From positions 1 to 59,156 of the forward strand of contig DUMA01000009.1 in NCBI GenBank assembly GCA_012840135.1: a stretch of 59,156 nt of DNA, read 5' to 3'. Below, in pieces: positions 3,842-15,669 of the stretch (positions are counted from its first letter, which is position 1; the number at the start of each line of letters is the position of its first letter). The DNA comes from Thermoanaerobacterales bacterium. Lineage in GTDB: Bacteria > Bacillota > Thermosediminibacteria > Thermosediminibacterales > Tepidanaerobacteraceae. The position numbers were made by a program, and so were the translations under genes. The notes under the pieces were generated by a model. The model made no database searches and was not told the DNA's origin. It worked only from the letters and a program-made list of their open reading frames with translations.

Positions 3842-4141
3842 CCGAAATGTTCCTATACTTTTCCGTTTGCATCAGCCACGTTCCAAATAGAGACCTGAAA
3901 GCAATAGGACTGAAAATTAAAAAGATGCTGAACTTGCATCTATTTCAAGTCGATGTTAAATATATCATCAATTTCATGAATTATCTCATGTATCAAAGTG
4001 CTTTTTTTGGACGTCATCAGTATATTTTGCAATCATTATGTCGAATAACTCGCATAATATAATGTCATACCGTTTATAACATCACCATCTATTTTTTGTA
4101 TTTTATATCTTTGTATTCTATTTTCACTTTGTCCGGAATTT
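3842..4141. other. CRISPR trailer flank, no gene
   Basis: AT-rich DNA without a credible coding region. A plus-strand open frame (3835-4062) starts inside the last repeat, has no ribosome site and matches nothing I know. The only recognisable item is a 36-nt segment at 3880-3915 that matches part of the phage MuF gene at 5626-5661 (see the repeat entry). Confidence 0.5.
3880..3915 (-). repeat. Diverged 36-nt copy of part of the MuF gene at 5626-5661
   Basis: About 30 of 36 positions are identical to 5626-5661, starting GTTCCAAATA and ending GACT-AAA on the plus strand. On the minus strand both copies read LLSGLYLE, and most differences fall in third codon positions, as expected of homologous coding DNA rather than chance. 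Similarity stops sharply on both sides. It may be a scrap of a second, related prophage. Confidence 0.5.
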
Positions 4142-9296: not shown

Positions 9297-9647
9297 TTAG
9301 AACTGCCTCGGAGAAAAGTTATCAGGAAAACCAAGTTTTTTATAAAGCAGGAATAAACAGTAGTCATAAACCTGCTTTTTATCATTTTCGTCCAACTGGG
9401 TATACACCTCCAGCAGCTTTTTTTGTTCTTCGCTTAATTTGGATCTTTCCTTGCCCGTTAGCAGCCAGTCTGTAGATACATTGAAGAATTCAGCCAGAGC
9501 TATTACGGAGGAAATCGATGGGCAAAAGCGTCCCGACTCATAGCTGCTGATATTGCCGCGCGTGACTCCCGTGGCGTCGGCCAGCTCCTGCTGGGTCAGT
9601 TTTTTTTCCTTTCTCAGCTTTAAAATTCTTTCTCCGATATTCTCCAT
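9297..9647 (-). CDS. XRE-family (SinR-like) transcriptional regulator
   Basis: 116 residues. Residues 1-60 form a Cro/CI-type helix-turn-helix (RILKLRKEKKLTQQELADAT, GNISSYESGR, ALAEFFNVSTDWLLTGK). The C-terminal half is helical and acidic (SEEQKKLLEVYTQLDENDKK) and may oligomerise. Two ATGs are possible: the first (9653) touches the TTGGAGG site, the second (9647) lies 6 nt from it and is preferred. The gene lies divergently from the FapA-family gene, so it could regulate that promoter or its own. Confidence 0.85.
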   Translation of the reverse strand: MENIGERILKLRKEKKLTQQELADATGVTRGNISSYESGRFCPSISSVIALAEFFNVSTDWLLTGKERSKLSEEQKKLLEVYTQLDENDKKQVYDYCLFLLYKKLGFPDNFSPRQF

Positions 9648-9752
9648 TTTCATCCTCCAATGTTACTTTAAATGAACTTAAAAAAATTGCAAAAAAAGGA
9701 AGAAAAATGACGAAAATGCTTGAAAATAGTACAAAATAGAGTGTAATAAAAC

Positions 9753-9781
9753 TTGATATGCTTGAAAACAAACATTATAAT
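9753..9781 (+). promoter_or_regulatory. Sigma-A type promoter upstream of the FapA-family gene
   Basis: TTGATA (9753-9758), a 17-nt spacer, then a perfect TATAAT (9776-9781). It lies about 210 nt upstream of the FapA start in a 340-bp AT-rich divergent intergenic region (9648-9994) that otherwise shows no gene; the long 5' leader is unexplained. Confidence 0.65.
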
Positions 9782-9994
9782 AGTTACAAAGTGAAAGAAG
9801 GTTTTTTAAAATACGTTATAATTTTCATCCCATCACCACCGAACAGCATAATTTAAATATATTCGACATATGGAGGTAAAATTCTTTTTTATTAGAATGA
9901 AATTTTCAAAAAAATAGTCTATCAAAAATAAATTAGAAATGTTTAAGGGGTAAACAGAACAAAAATAAAAGAGAAAATAGATGGGGGCATTTTA

Positions 9995-11563
9995 ATGGAA
10001 TCTGAGGGGCTTTTACTAAACATTAAAGATGATAGTAAAAAATACTTTCATCTTTTTTTGTCCAGAGATGAAATTTCGGTGGTGCTGAGGGTATTTCCGA
10101 GAACTGTTTCCGACGGTAAAGTGGTGGACTTTAAAAGCCGCGGTATGATGAAAAACGCTTTAATCGGTGAAATCTTTAAAGAGATGTCGGACAATGGAGT
10201 CGTGTACGGCGTAGATGCGGCGGCAATATACAGTGCCGTTGAAAAGGCCGATGGAATTCCTGTGATAGCCGCAAGAGGCGTTTCCCCAGAAAAAGGCAGG
10301 GACGGCTACATAGAGTGGCTTGTACCGCTGGAACCGGTGCCCATAAACTATGATGAAGACGAAAAGGTAAATTACTGGGAAAGGTGGCATATTCCCGTCG
10401 TAAAAGAGGGGGAAGACATTGCGGTGGTCCATCCCCCTGCGCCCGGAAAAAAGGGTATAACCGTAAAGGGGCATCTGGTGGAGCCGCCGCCCGTTAAGAA
10501 AGCGGTCTTTTCCCTGAGGGAAGGCGAGGTCGCATTTAGGGAGGACGGCAGAACTATATATGCGCTGAAGACGGGGAGGCCGATAGTCGGCGATTACCCT
10601 AAAGAAATCGGAATAAGCTCATTGTATATACATGATGGCAATGTAGACCTGGACTTTGGCAATTTGAAATTTGACGGAGATATTATCATAAACGGCAATG
10701 TCAATGAAGGCATGGAAATTGTGGCTTCCGGCAATGTTGAAATAAAAGGCAGCGCCTATTTTTCTAAAATAAGGGCTGGAAGAAACATTATTGTTGATGG
10801 CAGTCTTGTGAATTGCGACGTGGTGGCGGGCAAATCCCACATGCGAAGAAATTTGAAGGATTTGCTGGATTTATTGAAAGCCGATTTTGAGAGCTTGTAT
10901 GAAAAAATTACATTTATTGTGAGTTCTCCCATCAACAAGACCACCATAATGAATAACGTAAAGGACATCAACGATACACTATCGGAGATGCAAAGCACTC
11001 TTGCAAAAATAAATGAGATGATAAAAGGCGCCGGCAACGGGCGAAAAGACGAAATGCAGATTCTGGTGTCAAGAGTGCAAAGGTTTTTGGGAAACTCTAT
11101 AGTGACCGTGATACAGTCCTCTGACGAAATTAAAAACATCATATCCATGATAGTTGCCGTCCAAAAGCTATTTGCCTTTCAGTCTTTTGAACCGTGTTAC
11201 ATAGCTGCAGACTGGGTGCAGGGCGGCAATCTTTTTGCCACGGGAGATATCCTTATAAAAAACTATAAAGGCTGCTACAACACCCGCATGGAAGCCGGCC
11301 TGAACATATCGGTTCCCGGCATAGTTCGCAATAGCCAGCTTACGGCGGGGAAAAAGATAGTTATCGGGGAAGCCGGTTCCCCGCTATCGGGTGAAGAAGT
11401 GTATATAATAGGAACGGAAAAGAGCATCGTGAAGATAAAGCGATCTCATCCGGGGGTCGTGATTATACTGGGTAACCGGCGCTATCAAGTGAGCAAAACG
11501 AAAGATTATTTTAGACTGTTCATGGATAATAAAACCGGGTACATTATCGAAGGGAGCTTTTGA
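9995..11563 (+). CDS. FapA family protein (DUF342)
   Basis: 522 residues. The N-terminal third has the FapA domain (GVVYGVDAAAIYSAVEKADG, then the signature VHPPAPGKKGITVKG). The middle is a beta-helix-like segment with repeated G-N/D-V turns (INGNVNEGMEIVASGNVEIKG split by short loops), a coiled region (320-385), and a second G-rich beta section. FapA-type proteins occur in flagellar/type IV pilus clusters and in isolated copies in Clostridia; function here is unknown because no motility gene adjoins. Its 3' end overlaps the convergent dnaE by 20 bp. Confidence 0.85.
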   Translation: MESEGLLLNIKDDSKKYFHLFLSRDEISVVLRVFPRTVSDGKVVDFKSRGMMKNALIGEIFKEMSDNGVVYGVDAAAIYSAVEKADGIPVIAARGVSPEKGRDGYIEWLVPLEPVPINYDEDEKVNYWERWHIPVVKEGEDIAVVHPPAPGKKGITVKGHLVEPPPVKKAVFSLREGEVAFREDGRTIYALKTGRPIVGDYPKEIGISSLYIHDGNVDLDFGNLKFDGDIIINGNVNEGMEIVASGNVEIKGSAYFSKIRAGRNIIVDGSLVNCDVVAGKSHMRRNLKDLLDLLKADFESLYEKITFIVSSPINKTTIMNNVKDINDTLSEMQSTLAKINEMIKGAGNGRKDEMQILVSRVQRFLGNSIVTVIQSSDEIKNIISMIVAVQKLFAFQSFEPCYIAADWVQGGNLFATGDILIKNYKGCYNTRMEAGLNISVPGIVRNSQLTAGKKIVIGEAGSPLSGEEVYIIGTEKSIVKIKRSHPGVVIILGNRRYQVSKTKDYFRLFMDNKTGYIIEGSF

Positions 11564-14500
11564 TGCAGCTCCTCAATGGCCTGACCTTTTCAACCACCAC
11601 CGTGCGGTGGCCGTCATCGTTTAAATCGGTCCAGCCGTCGACTATGACGGGAGAACCGGTGAAAAGATATTGTGAAAAAAGTTTCATCTCCCGGGGGAAG
11701 ATCACCAGCTCCACAGAACCGGTCAGGTCTTCGAGCCGCACGAACATCATGCGCCCGCCGTTTCGGGTGCGACCCCAGCGGGGGTCCAGCAGGATTCCCG
11801 CCAGGCGCACCCTTTTCTTTTTATTTATTTCGTCCACATCGGCGGTGGTGTGGCTGCGGAACTCCCGGGCCACATTTTCCCACATTTCCATGGGATGGAC
11901 GGTGATGTAGTGGCCCAGCGCCGAAAGCTCCTGATTTATCTTTTGCTCCGGAGAAAAGTCCGGCAGGAACACGTCGCTGGCCAGACGCTCTGCCGGAGAG
12001 TCTTCGGGCAAAAGACAAATTTGACCGGAATATCCGGCGCCATATGCAGCCGATTTTGCCTCCAGAATGGCGGACTTTAAAGAAAGAAGCAGGGCGGGGC
12101 GCGGGACGCCGAAGGCATCGAAGGCTCCGGCCAGGATCAGGGATTCGAGGGCTTTGATGGTTACAACCCGCCTGTCGGTGCGCCGGCAGAAATTGAAAAA
12201 TCCGGTAAAGGGGCCTTCCTCCCGGGCCTTCAGGATTTCTTCGATGCCCCGGGCACCCAGGTTTTTGACCAGAGCAAATCCGACCCTGATTGTGTCACAG
12301 GGACGGTTTTCTTGACACATTGCGACGGATTGCGTCACGGAAGCTTGTGTCACGGGGACGGTTCCGTTGACACATTGGGCTGGGGTCGCTGGGGTCACAG
12401 GCGATGCCATAGGAATGGTTCCGGCAGCACATTGGACCGGGGTTATTGGAATCGTTTCGGCGGATCGGCCTGCAATCGGTTGTGTCATAAGAACCGTCCC
12501 ACTGACAGTCGATGTGTCACAAGAACCGTCCCCGTGACATGCGTGACATGACTGGCGTGCGGAACATGGTTCGGGGGAAAAGGCAACGCCGCTTTTGTTT
12601 ATGTCCGGCAACAGCAGCTTTATGCCTTTTCTGCGGGCTTCGGAAAGATAAAGCTGAAGGCGCGAGGGAGTGTCCATGTAAAGGGAAAGCAGTGAAGAAA
12701 AGTATTCCAGAGGGAAATGTTCTTTCAGATAAACGGTCCTGTAAGCCATGATGGCATAGGCTATGCTGTGGGACTTGTTGAAGCCGTAGTCTCCGAAGGC
12801 TTCCAGCACCGAGAAGATTTCTCCAGCGGTATTTTCATCGATGCCATGCTGCCTGGCCCTCCGAATGAATATAGGCCTTTGCCTTTCGATTTCCTCCTTT
12901 TTCTTTTTGGCTATGGCTCGCCTGAGAAGGTCTGCTTCCCCCAGGGTATAGCCGGCTACGACGTGAGCGGCCTGCATGAGCTGCTCCTGGTACAGGAAAA
13001 CCCCGTACGTATCCGCCAGCACCGGTTCCAGGGCCGGGTGAGCGTAGGTGACGGCCTTTCTGCCCCGGCGCCGCGCTATGAATTCCTCTGCCATGCCGCT
13101 CTGCAGCGGCCCGGGCCGGTAAAGGGCCAGCACCGCCGAGAGGTCTTCGATACTTTCAGGCTGGACCCTCCGGAGCATATTCCTCATGCCGGTGCTCTCC
13201 AACTGAAAAGTGGAGGTGGTGTCGCCCCGACGGAGGGCTTCAAAAGTTTTTTTATCATCCAGAGGGATATCCTTTACGGACATGTTGATTTTCCGCCGGG
13301 ATTTGACAAGTTCCAGCGTGTCACCGATCACCGTCAGAAACCGGAGGCCCAGCAGGTCTATTTTCACCAGACCCAGGTCCTCCAGCATTTCCATATCCGC
13401 CTGGGTGATGATTTCTTCTCCCGAGGCCCGCTGCAGGGCCACATAGTCCGTCAGGGGCCCCCCGGCTATCACCACCCCTGCAGAATGCTGGGTCATGTGG
13501 CGGGGGAGGCCCTGCAGGTGCCGGGCCGTTTCGAAAGCGCGCATTAGCTCCGGGTCCTGGCGCACCAGGGCCGAAAGCTGGGGACTCTGGTCCAAAGCGC
13601 CTTCAAGACTTATGTGTGAATAGGGGATGCAGGAACACATCCTGTCCACCTTTTCATAGGGTACGCCCAGGGCCCTGCCGGTGTCCCGCAGCACCGCCCG
13701 GGCCTGAAGGGTGGAAAAAGCTCCCGCATGGGCTATTCTTTCCCTGCCGAAGCGCTGCCTTATGTATTCCAGCACCTCCCGCCGGCCCCGGTGGCACAGG
13801 TCCACGTCTATGTCGGGAGGAGTTACCCTTTCGGGGTTTAAAAACCTTTCGAAGATGAGGCCGTATTTTAAAGGATCCACATCGGTGATGCCCAGGCAGT
13901 AGCTCACGAGGCTCCCGGCAGCAGAGCCGCGGCCGGCACCCACGGGAATGCCTCTTTTTCTGGCATAGTCCACGATGTCCTTTACTATGAGGAAATATCC
14001 CGCATATCCTGTCTGCCCTATCACCGAAAGCTCATATTCCAGGCGTCGCTGGACGTTTTCCGGCAGGGGCCTGCCGTAGCGGCCGCAGGCCCCATCGATG
14101 GTAAGCTTTTCCAGAAAACCTGCGGTGTCGTATCCGGCAGGTACCGGAATTTCGGGCAGGTTCATGCTTCCCAGGGAGAGCATGACATTGCATCTTTCGG
14201 CTATGTTTTCTGCATTTCTTAGAGCTTCCGGAACATCGGTAAAAAGCTTTTCCATTTCCGAGGGGGTCTTCAGGTAGTATTCCTTGCCCTCCAGGGAAAC
14301 GGATTCTCCCAGCATTGAAAGGGTCTGCACCGAAAGGAGCGCCCTGTGGACCTCAGCATCTTCCGGAGCCAGGTAATGAACGTCATTGGTGGCCACAAGT
14401 CCTGCACCCAGTTCTCTGGCCAGGGTCCGAAGCCAGAAATTGGCTTTTTTTTCCTGGACCAGGCCGTGGTCCTGTATTTCCAAAAAGAAATTTTCTTTCC

Positions 14501-14987
14501 CGAAGATATCTACATATTCTGCCGCCACCTGCCGGGCTCCGTCCATATCTCCTTTTAAAATGAGATCCGACACCTCGCCCCGTATGCAGGCGCTCAGGGC
14601 GATGAGGCCCCGGCTGTAATATGAAAGCAGCTTTTTATCCACCCGGGGACGATAGTAGAACCCCTCCAGGTTGGAGGCCGTCACTAATTTTAGCAGATTT
14701 TTGTAGCCCTCTTCGTTTTCGGCCAGCAGCACCAGGTGATGTGGGGATTCCTTTCCCTCTTTTTTGCGCATGTTGTCCACCATATAGACCTCACAACCGA
14801 GGATGGGTTTTATGCCCTTCTCCACGCACAGCTTGTAGAAGGGCACCGCCCCCCAGAGCCCTCCGTGGTCCGTCAGAGCTATGGCCGGCATGGAAAGCTC
14901 CGCAGCCCGGCTTACGAGTTCCGGCAGGCGGCACAGACCGTCCAGCAGGCTGTATTCGGAATGCACATGCAGATGGCAGAAAGACAT
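11544..14987 (-). CDS. dnaE: DNA polymerase III subunit alpha, DnaE
   Basis: 1147 residues from ATG 14987 (GAGGGTGAT upstream). An N-terminal PHP domain (FCHLHVHSEYSLLDG, then ALTDHGGLWGAV) precedes the C-family polymerase core: GRGSAAGSLVSYCLGI, the catalytic PPDIDVDLCHRGR, and the FNKSHSIAYAIMAYRTVYLK fingers motif. A C-terminal OB fold (VRLAGILLDPRWGRT) ends the protein. Between LLPDINKSGVAFSPE and IRVGFALVKNLG, where other DnaE proteins have a loop of about ten residues, about 90 extra residues rich in T, P, C and V are encoded by REP-like DNA (12291-12570). The promoter carries two LexA-type boxes. In Firmicutes DnaE works with PolC, mainly extending lagging-strand primers. Confidence 0.95.
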   Translation of the reverse strand: MSFCHLHVHSEYSLLDGLCRLPELVSRAAELSMPAIALTDHGGLWGAVPFYKLCVEKGIKPILGCEVYMVDNMRKKEGKESPHHLVLLAENEEGYKNLLKLVTASNLEGFYYRPRVDKKLLSYYSRGLIALSACIRGEVSDLILKGDMDGARQVAAEYVDIFGKENFFLEIQDHGLVQEKKANFWLRTLARELGAGLVATNDVHYLAPEDAEVHRALLSVQTLSMLGESVSLEGKEYYLKTPSEMEKLFTDVPEALRNAENIAERCNVMLSLGSMNLPEIPVPAGYDTAGFLEKLTIDGACGRYGRPLPENVQRRLEYELSVIGQTGYAGYFLIVKDIVDYARKRGIPVGAGRGSAAGSLVSYCLGITDVDPLKYGLIFERFLNPERVTPPDIDVDLCHRGRREVLEYIRQRFGRERIAHAGAFSTLQARAVLRDTGRALGVPYEKVDRMCSCIPYSHISLEGALDQSPQLSALVRQDPELMRAFETARHLQGLPRHMTQHSAGVVIAGGPLTDYVALQRASGEEIITQADMEMLEDLGLVKIDLLGLRFLTVIGDTLELVKSRRKINMSVKDIPLDDKKTFEALRRGDTTSTFQLESTGMRNMLRRVQPESIEDLSAVLALYRPGPLQSGMAEEFIARRRGRKAVTYAHPALEPVLADTYGVFLYQEQLMQAAHVVAGYTLGEADLLRRAIAKKKKEEIERQRPIFIRRARQHGIDENTAGEIFSVLEAFGDYGFNKSHSIAYAIMAYRTVYLKEHFPLEYFSSLLSLYMDTPSRLQLYLSEARRKGIKLLLPDINKSGVAFSPEPCSARQSCHACHGDGSCDTSTVSGTVLMTQPIAGRSAETIPITPVQCAAGTIPMASPVTPATPAQCVNGTVPVTQASVTQSVAMCQENRPCDTIRVGFALVKNLGARGIEEILKAREEGPFTGFFNFCRRTDRRVVTIKALESLILAGAFDAFGVPRPALLLSLKSAILEAKSAAYGAGYSGQICLLPEDSPAERLASDVFLPDFSPEQKINQELSALGHYITVHPMEMWENVAREFRSHTTADVDEINKKKRVRLAGILLDPRWGRTRNGGRMMFVRLEDLTGSVELVIFPREMKLFSQYLFTGSPVIVDGWTDLNDDGHRTVVVEKVRPLRSCIKSSLR
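12291..12542. repeat. Cluster of four REP-like palindromes inside dnaE
   Basis: Two elements run one way (12291-12320 and 12346-12375: TGTGTCA...GGGACGGTT...TGACACA) and two the other (12481-12509 and 12514-12542: TGTGTCA..AGAACCGTCCC..TGACA). Each has complementary 5-7 bp ends able to fold. Diverged copies seem to lie between. All fall in the extra loop of DnaE and keep its frame open through 93 or so codons. They belong to the same GGGGAC family as the intergenic elements elsewhere in the window. Confidence 0.8.
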
Positions 14988-15067: not shown

Positions 15068-15261
15068 TTAAAGTGGAAAATGATTCCACAATTAATTCGC
15101 AAATAGGAAATACAGGAATAACCCATGTATAACGAAATATGTCCTTTTACATAATGAATTGATTATTAAGAATGGTCAAATCGAAGAGGCTTTTAATGTA
15201 TCAGAAGGCCCTACAGAATTATGATTTTTATTCTGGACTTTATACTCTTGGCGGCGATGGA

Positions 15262-15461
15262 TACCCCCCGAAATTATACCTCCCCCGTCGATGGGCACCA
15301 CTATGGCGTCGGCGTCAGGCAGGTCTTCGAGGATTTCGAGCCCGATGGAGCCCTGGCCGGCAATTACTTGAGGGTCGTTAAAGGGGTGTATAAAGATGGC
15401 GCCGGTTTCTTTTTGCAGACGCATTGCTTCGGCATATGCCTCGTCATACACGTTACTGGAG
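15262..15461 (-). pseudogene. Internal fragment of threonine dehydratase
   Basis: The minus strand encodes NVYDEAYAEAMRLQKETGAI and HPFNDPQVIAGQGSIGLEI followed by VVPIDGGGIISGG, the middle of a PLP-dependent threonine ammonia-lyase (IlvA/TdcB); the tetraglycine phosphate-binding loop reads DGGG. Both ends are lost: homology stops at about 15262 and at the junction near 15460. No start or ribosome site belongs to it. Confidence 0.75.
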
Positions 15462-15669
15462 GGCGCTGACGGTAAAGGCCACCATGGTAAAGGGCATCTT
15501 CCGCCCGATGCCGGCAAAACGGCGGATTTCCCTGTTACCCGAGCCGTGGATCATGTTTCCCGCCGCAAGAAACAGGTTACTCTTTGTCAGGGCATGGTTC
15601 ATTATGTGAAATAGCGCTCCCACCATGCTCATTTCATTGGCAAGACTCCCCGGAGCCGCAGCACGTTCT
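15453..15669 (-). pseudogene. Fragment of a proton-conducting membrane transporter (NuoL/M-MnhD type)
   Basis: In another minus-strand frame the sequence reads SLANEMSMVGALFHIMNHAL, TKSNLFLAAGNMIHGSG, then RRFAGIGRKMPFTMVAFTVSAL, a conserved stretch of antiporter-like subunits of complex I, hydrogenases and Mrp antiporters. It is fused directly to the threonine dehydratase fragment, so a deletion joined two unrelated genes. Confidence 0.65.

Follow-up and report, generated by a model that had tools for sequence, protein, structure and literature searches.

In-frame REP palindromes at the predicted hairpin tip of a second DnaE in a Thermoanaerobacterales bacterium

The DNA considered here, called the window, is a stretch of 59,156 nucleotides from a Thermoanaerobacterales bacterium, within which a gene for a DNA polymerase, a DnaE paralogue, is interrupted in frame by REP palindromes. 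Quite probably these are nested REPs within a permissive loop of a second, dispensable DnaE, and most simply they may be viewed as tolerated selfish DNA. The insert, that is, would be a nested cluster of REPs possessing the core GGGACGGTT, and REPs with a core of this kind flank RAYT (HUH tyrosine) transposase genes in the order. Copies would have entered the tip of a beta-hairpin after the window species had split from its congener and would persist there since, presumably, that tip tolerates changes in length. The polymerase would then be translated through the insert, whose approximately 92 residues would form a disordered loop. Mobilisation of the dnaE REPs by a RAYT, translation of the insert, and its neutrality are all inferred.

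An accessory polymerase as host gene

The interrupted gene is found on the minus strand of the window at 11,547-14,987, with its stop codon at 11,544-11,546. As delimited using Pfam, the open frame, and a 15-member ortholog alignment, it consists of 1147 codons from ATG and encodes PHP, NTPase/palm, finger, HhH, and OB-fold domains (Pfam PF02811, PF07733, PF17657, PF14579, and PF01336). A separate, canonical dnaE is present in the same genome, encoding 1145 aa and intact (contig C35, L106:3014-6451), and is located downstream of whiA in a cluster consisting of whiA, a CBS-regulator gene, dnaE, pfkA, and pyk. PolC is encoded as well, on contig C18. Of the 22 genomes of the order, 17 possess the paralogue, and four members of the same family that are 88-99% complete (G005, G006, G010, and G012) possess the canonical type only. 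A preliminary description of this DNA had viewed the REPs as residing in an essential gene, which is not borne out given the presence of both a canonical dnaE and polC along with the four family members that lack the paralogue. The latter thus is best called an accessory polymerase rather than the genome's main dnaE.

Identification of the paralogue instead as an error-prone polymerase of the DnaE2 / ImuC type was rejected, as the protein scores 708 bits against PRK05672, which is below the cut-off of 939, and passes PRK05673 (1164 versus 1002). Among the neighbours of the paralogue in three genomes, imuA and imuB were not seen; methyltransferase genes are among those neighbours. Such a methyltransferase gene adjoins dnaE both in G001, which is the congener of the window species, and in G004, which is from a sister genus, with an XRE regulator and a FapA-like gene found at this location here instead (window 9,297-11,563; L110:7880-10459). 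A homologue of the dnaE-adjoining methyltransferase is found on contig C54 next to the RAYT of the window genome, and a REP is located at the stop codon of this homologue. On the other side of dnaE is a remnant of a threonine deaminase gene (window 15,176-15,517, minus strand); the corresponding position in G001 is occupied by a full gene of 405 aa (L108:8906-10123). The canonical dnaE of G001, for its part, is broken up by an apparent frameshift, giving two frames that overlap (L107:3269-6707).

From a different perspective, the REPs might be viewed as marking a pseudogene, i.e., a dnaE paralogue that is in the process of decaying. Relatives can indeed do without this paralogue, and the adjacent threonine deaminase gene has itself decayed. 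The idea nevertheless is largely refuted, and very improbable, as the frame is intact over all of its codons, the catalytic motifs PDIDVDL and KIDLLGL are kept, and dN/dS versus G001 is low (0.13-0.16), namely 0.126 on one side of the insert and 0.155 on the other. Comparisons with the window genome (G000) in general give values of about 0.11-0.16 for either side. It is these flanking values that are used as evidence of selection, because an open frame across the insert, with a probability of 0.10 by composition (first-order Markov model), is weak evidence. On both flanks of the insert, the paralogue remains subject to purifying selection.

The insert and its palindromes

The insert consists of 92 codons (residues 808-899; window 12,291-12,566, minus strand), is without counterpart in G001, in G009, which is a congener of G004, or in other orthologues, and has a pLDDT of about 26. 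Its initially described extent, 12,280-12,575, does hold the insert, with the proper bounds being slightly narrower. As also was proposed at that point, roughly 90 residues have been added with the frame kept, the repeats are all within one DnaE loop, and the flanks are near-adjacent in a normal DnaE, with the flanking residues aligning to 880 and 887 of the Taq protein. In the 15-member alignment the insert falls between conserved PEP and IR (F-x-PE and IR-x-G motifs). The loop at this site is about 2 to 17 residues in length in orthologues from the order, including 17 residues in both G001 and G009, and reaches about 31 residues in G007 and about 61 in G004. In a scan of 119 genomes from the phylum, only the window gene is interrupted at this point among the DnaE matches listed (approximately the first 150 rows), and a large insert at this site was found in no other DnaE among these same matches.

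An AlphaFold2 model of the paralogue, as based on an alignment of homologues from viral contigs, has a mean pLDDT of 83.7. DSSP places one hairpin strand at residues 804-806 (12,570-12,578, minus strand), which enters the loop, and a second at residues 898-901 (12,285-12,296, minus strand), which leaves it. Between these strands, segment 810-895 displays a pLDDT of less than 50, to which the sparse alignment within the insert may contribute in part. As so modelled, the insert forms a disordered loop that extends from the tip of a beta-hairpin on the surface. Were it instead a domain of long standing, or an extension of DnaE with a genuine function, then its length would be understandable, and that is the one point in favour of this exceedingly improbable alternative. 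At the level of sequence it is refuted, since the insert is absent from the other DnaE proteins compared, among the matches listed. The insert furthermore is without a Pfam domain, is disordered in the model, and is built from repeats which otherwise are intergenic. Conservation in distant DnaE proteins, which the preliminary description had named as the observation that would tell against REP invasion, was seen neither in the ortholog alignment nor among the matches listed from the 119 phylum genomes.

The repeats themselves are 29-base palindromes, with arms TGTGTCA and TGACACA found around the core (layout TGTGTCA(C)-GGGACGGTT-TGACACA). Four copies are present within 12,291-12,541, two per orientation, which together make up two nested inverted pairs. 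On the plus strand these are TGTGTCACAGGGACGGTTTTCTTGACACA at 12,291-12,319 and TGTGTCACGGGGACGGTTCCGTTGACACA at 12,346-12,374, with weight-matrix scores of 41.1 and 45.9 bits, respectively, and on the minus strand ACTGTCAGTGGGACGGTTCTTATGACACA at 12,481-12,509 (27.2 bits) and CATGTCACGGGGACGGTTCTTGTGACACA at 12,513-12,541 (46.2 bits). With the matrix trained only on REPs outside of dnaE, these scores, i.e., 27-46 bits, compare with a best score of 0.5 bits when the region was shuffled 200 times. As an exact pattern, the spaced palindrome TGTGTCA-N5-30-TGACACA has two matches in the window, both of them in the dnaE insert, versus 0 in 100 shuffles of the window. The four elements as first recognised, two in each orientation, hence are upheld. 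With regard to the additional, diverged copies that had been thought to lie between them, one is retained, which is GATGCCATAGGAATGGTTCCGGCAGCACA at 12,403-12,431 on the plus strand (9.0 bits versus a 99th percentile in shuffles of 6.0), with the others no better than chance. No further site of more than 6 bits was found in the weight-matrix scan of the 59-kb window. Inner spacing of the REPs in dnaE is 144-158 bp, versus 45-60 bp for most of the intergenic pairs here. The end tag of the GTAG/CGTC super-family is absent, with the dnaE copies ending in TGACACA / TGTGTCA and the CGTC of CCGTCCC sitting between the arms.

On either strand, two of the three frames of a canonical REP are without a stop, and insertion of such a REP into a coding sequence should therefore be easier to tolerate. 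Tolerance, however, is not the only role that may be imagined. The insert could have been co-opted as a regulatory element, with nested palindromes that fold in the mRNA and thereby slow translation or stabilise the polymerase transcript. The sense strand is predicted to fold at -121.6 kcal/mol versus -97.7 +/- 5.8 in shuffles (z -4.1), pairing outer REP with outer and inner with inner, and a REP pair in the dnaE of G004 could fold likewise. Any inverted REP pair would give such folding, however, and the insert has neither an Rfam match nor a terminator-like site, is found 2.4 kb into the gene, and represents a trait that is missing in the closest relative of each carrier. Regulatory co-option would seem, on balance, quite unlikely.

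The REP family and a second carrier

Near-exact REP cores number 18 in the window genome, 11 in G001, and 26 in G004, as compared with 0, 2, and 0, respectively, for a reversed control pattern. The suggestion that the palindromes are REP-like thus is confirmed in terms of a genome-wide family, with about nine sites in the window genome besides dnaE, all of which are between genes or at gene edges. A match on contig C24 (L054), along with its G001 counterpart (L057), was discarded as a chance match to conserved coding sequence that has no second arm. At one gene edge, a reading frame of 654 aa takes both its final residues and its stop codon from a REP (L045, C8:51520), as also is seen with its G001 homologue (L062).

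A link with transposases is seen in G004, where a RAYT gene on contig C37 (265 aa) has REPs of form ATGTCA..GGGGACGGTTCT..TGACAT on both sides, at 103 and 9 bases from the frame, and these are of G004's own arm type. Other RAYT genes of the family are associated with the same GGGGACGGTTCT core and other arms. The NCBIfam model REP_Tyr_transpos gives matches of 1e-16 to 8e-24, some of which fall below its cut-off. The only RAYT of the window genome (on C54) is flanked by TTCAAGT-armed REPs, with no RAYT flanked by TGTGTCA-type REPs found in that genome, and a RAYT search in G001, which is a single contig, yielded IS200-like matches only. REPs found around different RAYTs (L001, L090, L091, L086, L097, and L096) are alike in their core, GGGGACGGTTCT, and unlike in their arms (TTCAAGT, GAATA, ATGTCA, GCGACA, or AACCA), as though the two parts evolved independently.

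The dnaE paralogue of G004 possesses an inverted, in-frame REP pair at the same hairpin (L017:3929-3957, plus, and 4078-4106, minus), with the two copies 158 bp apart and thereby, like the two nested pairs of the window, spaced more widely than the approximately 45-60 bp of most intergenic pairs. Its congener, G009, has a short, uninserted loop. The two carriers are not each other's closest relatives, as G004 and G009 group together with support of 100/99 in a tree of the gene's larger part, and dS is 0.55 between the window genome and G001 versus 0.98 between the window genome and G004. This raises the question of whether there has been one invasion or instead two.

REP arms differ between genera, with TGACAC seen in 12 of 13 REPs of the genus of the window genome and G001 (g1), and TGACAT in 17 of 21 from the genus of G004 (g4); subtype assignment is correct for 33 of 34 REPs upon leave-one-out. 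The REPs in the dnaE of G004 are of G004's own type (log2 odds of 13.8 and 10.3), and three of the four window copies lean towards the g1 type (log2 odds of 6.0-15.3). The remaining window copy, at 12,513-12,541, is slightly nearer to the G004 subtype (-1.8) and is ambiguous. Because the G004 pair is of G004's own REP subtype, invasion of the hairpin probably happened twice, separately, as judged from these sequence comparisons.

Rather unlikely, by comparison, is a single old insertion, i.e., into the ancestor of both genera with subsequent loss in G001 and G009, or one that was passed between lineages by recombination. Such an origin would account for the use of the same hairpin and of the same 3' junction in both carriers (REP end next to the IR codons, ATA/ATC-AGG), for the presence of GCATGTCA at the 5' side of both inserts, and for the subtype of one window copy, which slightly resembles that of G004. 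The two inserts differ in their interiors, however, and both G004 copies as well as three of four window copies match the subtype of their own genome. Furthermore, a sequence SSM(G/S)AIR is common to the uninserted G001, G009, and G007 and is missing from both carriers, and a single insertion would need two independent exact restorations of it. The short, uninserted loop of G001 (L016) holds a small tandem repeat of CTCGAAC units, which suggests that the hairpin tip is prone to change in length.

If there were two separate invasions, then the hairpin tip could represent a recurrent and indeed preferred landing site for RAYT-type REPs, with REP insertion into polymerase and repair genes indicating a functional link rather than mere tolerance. 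A reason might be that the REP machinery operates on single-stranded DNA at sites where these polymerases are active. This would seem unlikely as things stand, and the more probable reading continues to be that of selfish DNA within a tolerant loop. As insertions of this sort are known from other bacteria, interest in this system lies in the repetition of the hit on one hairpin and not in a novel type of element. With an uninserted close relative available in each genus, together with an apparent second hit, it can be asked whether polymerase genes are favoured targets or instead simply possess a tolerant loop.

Comparison with known systems

In-frame REPs have been described from DNA synthesis and repair genes of many bacteria, including those for DnaE2 and for the DnaE of Rickettsia conorii (BMC Genomics 2013, PMC3733652). 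There, intragenic clusters encode 43-82 residues in Thauera and R. conorii, and repair genes sometimes are the only REP-bearing genes of a species (PMC3733652). The claim that translated REP clusters of this sort are very rare must be tempered, that is, as in-frame REPs in both DnaE2 and a Rickettsia DnaE already have been published (PMC3733652).

The REPs of that study, designated GTAG/CGTC, occur as singles, dimers, and groups, possess a GTAG or CGTC end tag that is outside of the stem, and, for CGTC repeats, are without a flanking transposase (PMC3733652). What is shared with these is the presence of short palindromes, in frame, within repair or synthesis genes. What differs is the core GGGACGGTT found between the arms, the flanking of RAYTs by related REPs, and the 92-residue insert. 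Rickettsia palindromic elements (RPEs) similarly are in-frame palindromic repeats inside conserved proteins (PMC3733652) and, as here, represent a repeat within the intact frame of a conserved protein that is absent from orthologues. They are of another sequence family and host, however, and are found in many genes rather than in one gene only. With REPINs and other RAYT-associated REPs, lastly, the similarity is one of paired, inverted REPs, with same-type REPs flanking a RAYT in a related genome (G004). Those usually are extragenic, however, whereas the pairs in dnaE are nested and are more widely spaced (144-158 bp). The lineage-specific invasion described here, in short, is real and is the same kind of event as the cases of PMC3733652, with what is new being a phylum and a REP type that are not covered there. 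Polymerase genes invaded in frame by REPs thereby come to include one from a Firmicutes-type lineage, with a REP core that is linked with RAYTs.
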